A stretch of 64,000 bases of DNA. Source: Methanococcoides sp. LMO-2 (GTDB lineage: Archaea; Halobacteriota; Methanosarcinia; Methanosarcinales; Methanosarcinaceae). Shown piece by piece: positions 5,681-49,884 of the stretch. The DNA is taken from positions 310,001 through 374,000 of the forward strand of contig NZ_JBCAUS010000006.1 of the NCBI RefSeq assembly GCF_038432375.1, written 5' to 3'. How positions within the stretch are numbered: the first letter of the stretch is position 1; each line of letters opens with the position of its first letter. Position numbers and translations under genes: made by a program. The notes beneath the pieces are model-generated. The model was not told the origin of the DNA and made no database searches. It saw nothing but the letters and a program-made list of their open reading frames with translations.

Positions 5681-5711
5681 GTTCGTTCTAGATGAATGAA
5701 CTTCTATATAA
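5681..5711 (-). promoter_or_regulatory. Thermosome promoter: TATA box and adjacent palindrome
   Basis: On the minus strand a TTATATAG box (5704-5711) precedes the palindrome GTTCGTTC-TAGAT-GAATGAAC (5681-5701), whose 8-bp arms match at 7 positions. The palindrome lies between the TATA box and the expected transcription start about 25 bases downstream. That is where archaeal repressors commonly block initiation. The gene is a heat-shock chaperonin, so a heat-responsive repressor is a reasonable inference. Confidence 0.55.
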
Positions 5712-5842
5712 GGATAACTGGTACTTGTATTGAACCAGGCTGAACAAGAAGAAAACAAAAAGTAGAAGAGAACAATAAACACAATGCTGCAAAACCTGCA
5801 AAAGAAATAGAGAATAAGAACACAAGAAAAGGATATAAGATA

Positions 5843-5914
5843 CGTCCCGGCCGAGACTTGAACTCGGGTCGAAGGCTCCGCAGGCCTCCAGGATATCCGC
5901 TACCCTACCGGGAC
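5843..5914 (-). tRNA. tRNA-Arg (anticodon GCG)
   Basis: The minus strand folds as a complete tRNA: acceptor stem GTCCCGG/CCGGGAC, D arm with GGGTAGCGGAT, anticodon stem GAGGC/GCCTT around the loop CTGCGGA (U33, anticodon GCG), a short variable loop, and T arm CCGAG-TTCAAGT-CTCGG. The discriminator is G and the CCA end is not encoded. It decodes CGC and CGU arginine codons. It stands alone between the divergent thermosome and GTPase genes. Confidence 0.93.
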
Positions 5915-6056
5915 AGGTTGGACAGCTTCCTAATAACTTACTGCAATATAAATATTGCTGGTCGGAGATCAAACTAAGGCAAATTCATGGATATGTCAGA
6001 TAACCTTAGACCATCCACTAAAAAAAGTTAAATGCTTCGAGGGTGATGTGTAGAAC

Positions 6057-40681: not shown

Positions 40682-41473
40682 ATGCAACTGAAATCAACAG
40701 GACTATTGAGTGTTCTAACATTTTCCGAAAAACGAAAGGACCTATTGTTCCTTTTAGAGGAAGGACCCCGGTCATTATCCCAGATAAGGGAACATTTCGA
40801 CGTAAGCTCCCCGGAGATTTCACCCCGATTGAAAGAAATGGAAGCTGCAAACCTTATCTGTAAGGATGAAAAAGAGTATCATATAACACCCATTGGAAAA
40901 GTTGCAGCAAAATACCTGAAACCACTGGTCAATACACTTGAATCAATAGAGAAGAACGAGGATTTCTGGAAAGATCATATCCTTGAAGGCATTCCACAGC
41001 ATCTCCTGGAAAGGATAAGTGAACTTGGCGAATGTATCGTACACGAGGAAGGCCTTGAGAACATATACGACTCACACAAGAAATTTCTTGACAACATAGC
41101 CAGATCAGAGGAAGTCTGTGGCGTATCCTCAATTTTCATACCAATATACCCTGAGTTCTTTGCAAACCTGGCAAAGAACAATGTACCTACGTCCTTAATA
41201 CTAACCAGGAATGTATTTGAAAAAGTAAAGAATGAATATACCGAAACGATGCAGGCATATCTGGATTCGGACAATACAAGACTATATCTTATCGAATCCG
41301 CAAAGGTTGCATTCGTCACAACTGACGACTTCTTTTCCCTTTCACTCTTTTTCAAGAACGGTACATACGACCCACAGAGAGATCTCATGGGAACCGGAAA
41401 TACAATTTCAAGCTGGGGAAAAGACCTCTTTGAACATTATAAGAAAGAGGCCAGGGAGATCACATCCCTGTAA
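40682..41473 (+). CDS. FilR1/Msr-type transcriptional regulator (DUF1724)
   Basis: 263 residues. A winged helix (LLFLLEEGPRSLSQIREHFDVSSPEISPRLKEME) is followed by the DUF1724 ligand-type domain (about residues 135-260). Regulators of this build control methyltransferase genes and filament formation in Methanosarcinales. The ATG at 40682 is chosen because a TATA box (ACTATATATAC, about 40642-40652) predicts a start near 40672 and GGAG lies between them; a TTG at 40673 is less likely. The last 14 bases overlap the convergent UbiA gene. Its target is unknown. Confidence 0.82.
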   Translation: MQLKSTGLLSVLTFSEKRKDLLFLLEEGPRSLSQIREHFDVSSPEISPRLKEMEAANLICKDEKEYHITPIGKVAAKYLKPLVNTLESIEKNEDFWKDHILEGIPQHLLERISELGECIVHEEGLENIYDSHKKFLDNIARSEEVCGVSSIFIPIYPEFFANLAKNNVPTSLILTRNVFEKVKNEYTETMQAYLDSDNTRLYLIESAKVAFVTTDDFFSLSLFFKNGTYDPQRDLMGTGNTISSWGKDLFEHYKKEAREITSL

Positions 41474-42389
41474 ATGCTCTCAGACCTACAATCATACCGG
41501 ATTCCCCATCCACAACAAAGAGGCGTTTGTGCATCCTGCTCTTCGACTCATTTTCCGTAGGAACCGTGAACCTGTAGATGCATACCATCCCTGCAATGAA
41601 ACTGTAGACCAAAATCATAGGCTCATGAGCGATTGTCCCGGAAAGTATCAGAAGTCCCAGAAGGGAATGAGAGAAAAGATGCATACCCAAAAGCAGGTCG
41701 CGAGTTCTCTGCGGACCAAGGCTTACAGGAAGGGTCTTGATACCTGCAAGAGCATCGCCTTTGATATCTTTGAAATCATAGACTGAAGAGTTTACGAAAA
41801 GTTTGATGCCAAAGAAAAGGAAAACTACTATCACCGGCAGGATGCTCTCCGCATACCAGCCTGCAATACCGGCAATGAATGCACCCCATGTTATGCCAAC
41901 AACAAGATTCTTGACACCAAGGCCACCTTTAAGTTTCAAATGGAATTTACCGACCTTAAGCCCTTTACTGTAGAGATAACCGGTAACAAGAGGAAGAAAT
42001 GCCAGGAAAAGAAGTCCGTCAAGGAATAGAAGATATGCACCTGCCAGAAATGCAAGTAAGCAAACAAAGAGTACTATTTTAGTTCTTGCACCTTTAAGCT
42101 CGGACCTGTTAACAGCATCTTCCTCAGAATCAAGCGCACGGTCCAGGGTGTACACAGCATACACAACAAGACCACCTGCTATGCAGGAGAGAATATTGAA
42201 TTGCATCTGAAGCAGAAGGAAAGCAAGATAGATCCTTAAAGCTCCGGATACTGAGACCAGAGTGGAACTATTCAAAAGATGCAGTGTCGGCCACAGCCCT
42301 GAAATATCAGGCAGTTCCAGGAAGCTGCTCTTGTTGTTGTTTTTCGGATAGCTCAACTGATTTGTGGAAATAACTGTTTTTTCAGCCAT
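41460..42389 (-). CDS. UbiA-family prenyltransferase
   Basis: 309 residues with eight or nine membrane helices. The two Asp-rich substrate motifs are YTLDRALDSEED and YDFKDIKGD. The family transfers polyprenyl groups to aromatic, sugar or lipid acceptors; the acceptor is unknown here. In this organism candidates include archaeal lipid or quinone-like (methanophenazine) synthesis, which I cannot distinguish. It ends 14 bases inside the convergent regulator gene, and its start shares a divergent region with the amber gene at 42631. Confidence 0.88.
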   Translation of the reverse strand: MAEKTVISTNQLSYPKNNNKSSFLELPDISGLWPTLHLLNSSTLVSVSGALRIYLAFLLLQMQFNILSCIAGGLVVYAVYTLDRALDSEEDAVNRSELKGARTKIVLFVCLLAFLAGAYLLFLDGLLFLAFLPLVTGYLYSKGLKVGKFHLKLKGGLGVKNLVVGITWGAFIAGIAGWYAESILPVIVVFLFFGIKLFVNSSVYDFKDIKGDALAGIKTLPVSLGPQRTRDLLLGMHLFSHSLLGLLILSGTIAHEPMILVYSFIAGMVCIYRFTVPTENESKSRMHKRLFVVDGESGMIVGLRAFTGM

Positions 42390-42471: not shown

Positions 42472-42630
42472 ATAATACCAAATCACTAATATATACACCT
42501 CATAAAATAAGTACTGGTTGTATATACACTCCGAATGAAACAATTGGAGAGAATACTAACAAACAGAAAAAACGAGGAGTTCAGAGAGATTTACCTGAAA
42601 CAAATATCCCGGAACTCAAGAGGCTGAAAT

Positions 42631-43164
42631 ATGAATTACCAGTACACTGTAATGTACACACCTGATGAAAGATACACTGATGGTTGCCAGCAGATTGATC
42701 CAGTGAACCCCTTAGAAGAATATACCAACCTGAGAGATATGTGGAAACTAAAGATAATGGATACGCAATAGGAGCCAGAAGGCACTCTTAAGACAAATGT
42801 GAACTTATCTTTAGGAAAAGATACGCATTACTGGACTGATACCAACGGCCTGAACATATTCATTAGATCCTGTTACAGGGAGGCAGAAAGATGTTCAAGA
42901 GAAAGCATAAGCAGGTTCATTTCAGGAATATTCATGCAGGAATTCCCCGACATGGAACCTGAAAATGCCAGATCTTTTGGTAATGATCTTGCAGAGGAGA
43001 TCATAGGATCCGGCAATATTGAGATGGGAGATGGAAAAAACAGGAGAATTAAAATTGAATGGTCCTCCATGGCACTTGTTTTCCTCTACAATGAAACAAG
43101 GTCTGACGAAGCAATACCCATATCGATAGATGACCGATACTACAACATCAGTAAAAAGAGATAA
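42631..43164 (+). CDS. Unknown protein with in-frame amber codon (pyrrolysine candidate)
   Basis: An ATG at 42631, with GAGG 7 bases upstream, opens a frame of 46 codons (begins MNYQYTVMYTPDERY, ends KLKIMDTQ) that stops at TAG (42769-42771). The same frame continues without interruption for 130 more codons (EPEGTLKTNVNLSLGKDTH ... DDRYYNISKKR) to TAA. Read through, the product is 177 residues with residue 47 encoded by UAG. The downstream part has only a GTG (42799) as a possible separate start and no ribosome site of its own. Pyrrolysine insertion is possible in this lineage; a nonsense mutation or a short peptide are alternatives. I do not recognise the family. Confidence 0.6.
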
Positions 43165-43227
43165 ATACGGAACTGTTTTATAAGGTGTTTTCTTTCTCAC
43201 CACCAAAATTCTTCGAGGAAAACACCA

Positions 43228-44583
43228 ATGAACGCCAGAGCCCGGATGCTTGGAGAAGAGAGCATCTCAAAGGTCCTATTCAAACTTTCAGTGCCTGCAA
43301 CCATAGGAATGGTAGTACAGGCACTATACAATCTTGTGGACACTATATTTGTCGGAAGGGCACTGGGACCTGAAAGTGTTCAGGGGATTGCAGGAATTAC
43401 GATAGCATTCCCGATCCAGATGATAATAATGGGAGTTGCCCTTACCATTGGTATCGGAAGTGCTTCCATAATATCGAGAAGTCTTGGTGCAAAGGACTAC
43501 AGACGTGCCGATATTGCCCTGGGGAATGCGATCTCCACAATATTGATACTAAGCACACTTGTCACAGTACTTGGAAGCATTTACATCGTGCCACTGTTGA
43601 AACTCTTCGGCGCTACTGAGACGATCCTCCCCTTTGCATATGACTATACGAGAATAATCCTTTATGGAACCCTTGTTTTTGCATTCTCAATGACTGTCAA
43701 CAACATCGTACGTGCTGAGGGAAACGCAAAGGTTGCCATGCTGACGATGGTCATTTCTGCAGGGTTGAACATCATACTTGACCCCATATTCATTTTCGGA
43801 CTTGGCATGGGAATAAAAGGGGCTGCTATCGCCACCGTGATATCACAGGCTGTTAGTGCCATCTATCTGACGCATTATTTCAGCAGCGGAATGAGCAGCC
43901 TGAACTTCCATGCAGGCGACCTCGTCCCCCACCCGGATGTATTCATGGAGACCATATCCATCGGAGCATCCTCCTTTGCAAGGAGTGCATCAGGAAGCCT
44001 GATGATAATTGTAATAAACAATGCACTGGCGATCTATGGCGGAGATATACCGATCGCTGTCTTTGGTGTTGTCAACCGCCTGTTCATGTTCACATTCATG
44101 CCAATGATAGGAATCGTACAGGGACTGCAACCGATCGTCGGTTTCAATTACGGTGCAAAAAACTTTGATAGGGTCGTCAGCTCAACCGCCCTTGCCATCA
44201 AGGTTACCACCGTAATATCAATTGCGGGTTTCATGCTGCTGTTCCTATTCCCATCCCAGTTGTTCAGTATATTTACCACGGATCAGCAGTTGATCGATGC
44301 AGGCAGATCCGCCACACGCATCATGGTGCTCGCAGTGCCTTTTGTGGGGTTCCAGATAGTAGGAGCATCCATCTACCAGACACTGGGAAAAGCCAGACCC
44401 GCATTTTTCCTATCCATAAGCCGCCAGGTACTTTTCCTCATACCCCTGGTCCTGATACTGCCACAGTTCTTCCAGTTATACGGAGTATGGATAGCATTCC
44501 CGATATCCGATGGCCTCTCATTCCTCGTGACCTTTGTAATGCTTGCAAAGGAGTACAGCGCCTTCAAAGCAATCAATGCCTGA
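43228..44583 (+). CDS. MATE-family efflux transporter
   Basis: 451 residues with twelve membrane helices in two homologous halves, the MATE/NorM fold. Landmarks are FKLSVPATIGMVVQALYNLVDTIFVGR, IIARSLGAKD-like ISRSLGAKDYRRAD, LGMGIKGAAIATVISQ, and GVVNRLFMF...GIVQGLQPIVGFNYGA. It should export organic cations or drugs using Na+ or H+. GAGG lies 10 bases before the ATG. It is 63 bases after the amber gene. Confidence 0.92.
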   Translation: MNARARMLGEESISKVLFKLSVPATIGMVVQALYNLVDTIFVGRALGPESVQGIAGITIAFPIQMIIMGVALTIGIGSASIISRSLGAKDYRRADIALGNAISTILILSTLVTVLGSIYIVPLLKLFGATETILPFAYDYTRIILYGTLVFAFSMTVNNIVRAEGNAKVAMLTMVISAGLNIILDPIFIFGLGMGIKGAAIATVISQAVSAIYLTHYFSSGMSSLNFHAGDLVPHPDVFMETISIGASSFARSASGSLMIIVINNALAIYGGDIPIAVFGVVNRLFMFTFMPMIGIVQGLQPIVGFNYGAKNFDRVVSSTALAIKVTTVISIAGFMLLFLFPSQLFSIFTTDQQLIDAGRSATRIMVLAVPFVGFQIVGASIYQTLGKARPAFFLSISRQVLFLIPLVLILPQFFQLYGVWIAFPISDGLSFLVTFVMLAKEYSAFKAINA

Positions 44584-49552: not shown

Positions 49553-49809
49553 TCATCTTAGATAGGTCTACTTGAAAAACATCTCTGATAGTTCAACACA
49601 TTTTTGTCCAACTACACGTTTTTTCGGACAAAAACGGTATTTTTCGGTCAAACCGAATACTATATAGTTTTGCAAGAATCTTCTAAACATTTAATCCACT
49701 ACTTTTTGAGTTGCGGCAACCTTTACGAAATTGTAACATTCTATATTTTAAAATTAAAGCTATGATTTTGGCTATGCAAATGGGCGGAAATAGCTTGCCG
49801 ACATGCGAT
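49553..49809. other. Gene-free right arm of the element
   Basis: AT-rich, no gene. It includes TTTTTCGGACAAAA (49620-49633), the inverted partner of a sequence in the left arm, and a small hairpin TTCGGT-CAA-ACCGAA (49643-49657). Confidence 0.5.
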
Positions 49810-49884
49810 TTGACCACAAAGTAGGTTATTTGACTATAAAGTAAGGTAGTTGACCACAATGTAGGGGACTTTATGGGCAAGCCC
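49810..49884. repeat. Right end: three 20-bp subterminal units and terminal inverted repeat
   Basis: TTGACCACAAAGTAG (49810), TTGACTATAAAGTAA (49830) and TTGACCACAATGTAG (49850) have an exact 20-base period, followed by GGACTTTATGGGCAAGCCC (49866-49884). Confidence 0.85.

Follow-up and report, generated by a model that had tools for sequence, protein, structure and literature searches.

An in-frame UAG, most likely decoded as pyrrolysine, in a small accessory gene of Methanococcoides whose genome uses UAG as a sense codon

In this study, we examined a stretch of 64,000 nucleotides from Methanococcoides sp. LMO-2 (the window; G000:C6:310001-374000, in a genome of 2.31 Mb in 14 contigs), in which a divergently oriented UbiA-family prenyltransferase gene and the gene of a MATE-family exporter enclose a short interval (Table 1). 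This interval holds a reading frame that opens at ATG 42631, runs for 46 codons to a TAG at 42769-42771, stays open for 130 codons more and closes on TAA 43162-43164, exactly as an earlier, sequence-only reading had placed it. The good ribosome site which that reading saw before the ATG is borne out by alignment, as the stretch AACTCAAGAGGcTGAAA 5′ of the start is retained in 6/6 species and the sequence flanking it has diverged. In five other Methanococcoides species the prenyltransferase and exporter genes are directly adjacent and the gene is absent. The stretch TAAATACGGAACTG.TTTATAAGGTGTTTTC between gene and exporter (window 43162-43190) is near-identical in 11/11 species, including those without the gene, and is probably the exporter's promoter. 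The gene is an accessory one in the genus, lost from, or never acquired by, about half of its species.

Table 1. Positions of the gene, its parts and neighbours in the window, and of the pyrrolysine tRNA gene elsewhere on the contig
Feature	Position	Strand	Remarks
UbiA-family prenyltransferase, divergent neighbour	41460..42389	-	PF01040, E 6e-18; a homologue also flanks the gene in other genera
Ribosome-binding stretch AACTCAAGAGGCTG, GAGG at 42620-42623	42613..42626	+	Six-species alignment; one G deviates in G004
Whole gene	42631..43164	+	177 codons, the 47th being UAG; TAA end; full-length orthologues in five Methanococcoides genomes
MWKLKIMD motif, codons 37-44, 5′ of the UAG	42739..42762	+	Onset of conservation with distant relatives; predicted strand 37-42
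In-frame TAG, codon 47, putative pyrrolysine	42769..42771	+	TAG also in G010
Codons 48-177, conserved beta-beta-alpha-alpha-beta-alpha-beta-beta domain (HYWTDTNGLNI ... IEWSSMALVF ... IDDRYYNI)	42772..43161	+	Purifying selection; homologues in three more genera; AlphaFold2 model
GTG, codon 57, sole in-frame start downstream of the UAG before codon 102	42799..42801	+	GAG in G010; judged unused as an independent start
MATE-family exporter, downstream neighbour	43228..44583	+	PF01554, E 2e-56
tRNA-Pyl(CUA)	L027:10684-10755		

Orthologues are present in five of the ten other Methanococcoides species, and each copy has 177 codons, the same start site and the same TAA end. Codon 47 is TAG in the sister species G010 as well, and encodes serine or phenylalanine in the remaining four (TCT in G004 and G001, TCC in G007, TTC in G005). 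Three species (G004, G005 and G007) have no stop anywhere in the gene. A second species, G001, with serine at codon 47, carries an independent TAG at a different place, codon 21, a position occupied by CAG or CAT (Gln or His) in the other species; since this UAG21 precedes ATG37, a late start could bypass it. Beyond the genus, we found homologues in three more Methanosarcinaceae genera (loci L101-L116), their matched stretches being without in-frame stop, and several of them lie at the same locus, next to UbiA, a FilR1-like regulator and purH. The segment MWKLK-MD (codons 37-44), upstream of the UAG, aligns to VWKFNV or VWRFNI inside single unbroken ORFs of other genera, and W38-K39 is invariant in eight homologues.

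The genome encodes the means to translate such a codon. Genes for tRNA-Pyl (anticodon CUA), pylS, pylB, pylC and pylD are clustered on the same contig (C6, about 210.7-215.0 kb); profile scores identify pylS (TIGR02367, 403 bits) and pylB (TIGR03910, 557 bits), and pylC and pylD are the two ORFs directly 3′ of pylB, named from the pylBCD order and their sequence only. In-frame TAG codons are found in two mtmB copies and at codon 356 of mtbB. The sequence-only reading had further noted that no other gene called in the window ends in TAG, and this holds for the conserved genes that encode 100 aa or more: all 58 end in TGA (37) or TAA (21), and none in TAG. With TAG making up 17% of the stop-type trinucleotides in the window, the chance of this outcome is approximately 0.83^58 = 2e-5. 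Two short TAG-ending ORFs, both on the minus strand, passed our automatic filter (5688-5972 and 49683-49880); the former overlaps a tRNA-Arg gene (5842-5915), the latter would encode 65 aa, and both look spurious.

Across 454 kb of the same contig (about a fifth of the genome), TAG ends five of 374 conserved genes of at least 100 aa when the standard code is applied. Four of these ends are crossed by a profile match or by the continuity of a repeat (mtbB, an FrhB-like protein, a delta-60 repeat protein and Nnr), leaving pylB as the sole TAG end in this set without readthrough evidence. As UAG rarely terminates genes and four of its five apparent ends are read through, it behaves, as far as gene sequences can tell, as a general sense codon in the genus, with pylB a possible exception. 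A pseudogene control gave a corresponding picture: in stretches of 400 kb, when only those in-frame stops were counted that face a sense codon in two or more of the other three species, there were 3 TAG, 0 TAA and 0 TGA. Unsupported single in-frame stops occur for TAG, TAA and TGA, mostly in over-long N-termini or spurious ORFs. Conservation of the sequence flanking a TAG was not used as a measure of readthrough, since it also arises wherever a frame read through TAG runs across a different gene or an upstream region.

Several of these genes deserve mention in their own right. In Nnr, the NAD(P)H-hydrate dehydratase/epimerase (G000:C6:392469-393914; L033:18469-19914), TAG stands at codon 335 in G000 only, at a position where relatives have GAG or AAG, and the product would be an ordinary household enzyme with a putative pyrrolysine. 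The FrhB-like protein (coenzyme F420-reducing hydrogenase beta type, 390 aa; G000:C6:76551-77723; L020:16551-17723) has a TAG at codon 345 in G000, G010 and G004, and its profile spans the codon. The delta-60 repeat protein (439 aa; G000:C6:153268-154587; L024:13268-14587) has TAG at codon 320, within the repeats, a feature common to G000, G010 and G001. In G001, a response-regulator/histidine-kinase protein (L082:2874-4682) carries an in-frame TAG at a position that is tyrosine in relatives. In each of the four Methanococcoides species read, the pylB gene (G000:C6:212051-213289; L027:12051-13289) closes on TAG where the protein normally ends, and 42 further open codons, which overlap pylC, follow. 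If this TAG were read, PylB would acquire a pyrrolysine-containing tail, with possible feedback on pyrrolysine synthesis.

Because UAG is hardly ever a stop in this organism and the gene is unbroken in relatives, we read UAG47 as a pyrrolysine codon. We consider it highly probable that 42631-43164 is one gene whose UAG47 is decoded by Pyl-tRNA(Pyl), giving a 177-residue product in which pyrrolysine is tolerated; judging from the genes present, the residue at UAG47 is most likely pyrrolysine. The earlier proposal of a pyrrolysine candidate is thereby strengthened, through the pyl cassette and known pyrrolysine genes of the genome, the unbroken orthologues, and the selection found after the UAG (see below). 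Mechanistically, a ribosome reaching UAG47 would continue the chain, with pyrrolysine inserted by tRNA(Pyl) of anticodon CUA charged by PylRS. A special RNA signal would be unnecessary, true gene ends using UAA or UGA, and insertion would be expected to be efficient, at a site in a variable loop that links an N-terminal strand to the main domain. A stem-loop of the PYLIS type directly after UAG47 was not found (fold z-scores -0.76 and -0.51), nor was any Rfam match after this codon, in agreement with earlier reports of PYLIS being dispensable (PMC9499178).

The same codon might instead serve as a conditional gate, ending translation when little pyrrolysine is available and letting it continue during growth on methylamines, so that the amount of full protein tracks the pyrrolysine supply. 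In keeping with this idea, a UAG within the first 47 codons was gained independently in two lineages, at different codons, each early enough for an on/off gate. If true, production of an accessory protein would be coupled to growth on methylamines, with the full-length form made only when Pyl-tRNA is plentiful. Against it, the position of the UAG is unconserved, three species have no UAG in the gene, neither a downstream RNA structure nor an Rfam element accompanies the codon, and UAG is a general sense codon in the genus; we therefore regard a gate as very improbable.

The open frame after UAG47 is not due to chance. Comparing G000 with G010, both of which have UAG47 and whose proteins share 67% identity, pN/pS over codons 48-177 is 0.37 versus 0.93 under random placement of the substitutions, with 0/3000 trials as low, and the differences fall 21, 15 and 45 times on codon positions 1, 2 and 3, respectively. 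This part of the gene is under purifying selection. Over codons 1-46 the signal of selection is weak (pN/pS 0.50 vs 0.79 random, P = 0.065), and codons 1-36 look near neutral in the other clade, so that some of the N-terminal region may be of minor importance. The gene as a whole is among the fastest-changing in the region, its 67% identity to G010 comparing with a median of 97% (roughly a tenfold higher rate of change than in the neighbouring genes) and its dS of 0.69 with a median of 0.20.

Such rapid evolution, together with the absence of the gene from five species of the genus, could point to a gene in decay, in which UAG47 is a true nonsense mutation and the downstream frame the remnant of a pseudogene. 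Nevertheless, UAG47 is common to G000 and G010, whose copies of the protein share just 67% identity, and codons 48-177 contain no TAA, TGA or indel and keep the low pN/pS given above. The same substitutions placed at random leave the frame stop-free in 5% of trials. Moreover, premature TAA or TGA codons backed by at least two relatives were not seen in the 400-kb stretches, in which TAG was. The fast change fits relaxed constraint and the low pN/pS argues against decay, which we hold to be very unlikely.

A division of the frame into a 46-residue peptide and a second, independent protein, initiated at GTG 42799 or further downstream, draws on the presence of that GTG in G000, where the only other in-frame starts 3′ of the TAG are ATG at codons 102 and 108. 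In G010, however, codon 57 is GAG and the first in-frame start after the UAG is codon 108, downstream of the conserved HYWTDTNGLNI. The sequence-only reading had allowed for homologues in the form of two separate genes and for conservation beginning only at the GTG; instead, homologues are single unbroken ORFs, never two genes, and conservation begins earlier, at MWKLK-MD, with the GTG itself missing in G010. Two products are accordingly an exceedingly unlikely arrangement. That UAG47 is read as a residue other than pyrrolysine, by near-cognate misreading, is hardly credible in an organism with a dedicated tRNA-Pyl(CUA) and a full pyl cassette.

Returning to the proposed 177-residue product with pyrrolysine at position 47, we found no Pfam or NCBIfam family at cut-off for the gene or its relatives, and at these cut-offs no sequence match to MtmB, MtbB or MttB. 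An AlphaFold2 model built from 19 sequences (mean pLDDT 66) places strands and helices over residues 66-174; codon 47 falls in a loop modelled with low confidence (44-59), which separates this domain from a strand at 37-42. Structure searches of PDB and BFVD gave no convincing match, the best reaching a Foldseek E of 0.53 and a VIA-align Z of 4.5 with a query model whose pLDDT is only 66. Given its predicted location in a variable loop, the serine or phenylalanine found at this position in relatives, and the different site of the UAG in a second species, Pyl47 would probably be tolerated rather than catalytic or functional. Since UAG is a general sense codon here and its position is unconserved in the genus, the protein is not one with the special character of a pyrrolysine enzyme, which refines the original pyrrolysine-candidate reading.

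As to its role, two paralogues in other genera (L103:1294-1977 and L104:1492-2172, the latter on the minus strand) have an N-terminal signal peptide, as judged by eye, and a strongly hydrophobic middle, and may form a secreted branch of the family. Given the secreted appearance of some relatives and a locus shared with a prenyltransferase, one could think of a small protein associated with the cell envelope or with cell-cell interaction, although we consider this assignment doubtful.

If UAG47 is read as pyrrolysine, non-enzymatic pyrrolysine proteins gain one family, missing from Pfam and NCBIfam at cut-off. The genus would also offer a natural series, with UAG, Ser or Phe at codon 47 and UAG, Gln or His at codon 21, in which pyrrolysine enters proteins as an ordinary residue. 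There is a practical side to this as well. Annotation that takes TAG as a stop would yield a 46-aa fragment and a truncated 121-aa ORF, or a pseudogene, in place of this gene, and in the same genome would also shorten ordinary enzymes such as Nnr.

Compared with the MtmB, MtbB and MttB proteins of Methanosarcinaceae, the gene is alike in having an in-frame UAG and in relying, as we propose, on decoding by the same pyl cassette. Pyrrolysine in those methyltransferases is a conserved catalytic residue (PMC2933860, PMC3941956). Here, in contrast, the UAG position is unconserved, with Ser or Phe in relatives, and lies in a predicted loop. The homologues of other Methanosarcinaceae genera have the same domain, several of them at the same UbiA locus, and differ in having no in-frame stop. 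Amber stops are little used in this family of archaea (PMC3941956), and an earlier proposal holds that in-frame amber codons can arise neutrally (PMC3639795). In Methanosarcina acetivorans, sporadic pyrrolysine-containing transposases and a TetR regulator have been attributed to neutral single mutations (PMC3639795). Our gene resembles these in having an in-frame UAG outside the methyltransferases, but it belongs to another protein family, and its UAG47 is common to two species at 67% protein identity. Archaea in which every TAG codon is read as pyrrolysine (a ‘Pyl code’) have reportedly been described by Kivenson et al. in Science in 2025. Methanococcoides is like such archaea in that TAG is nearly never a terminator and is found in ordinary genes, at positions where relatives carry sense codons; it is unlike them in pylB alone, where TAG stands at the protein's normal end.
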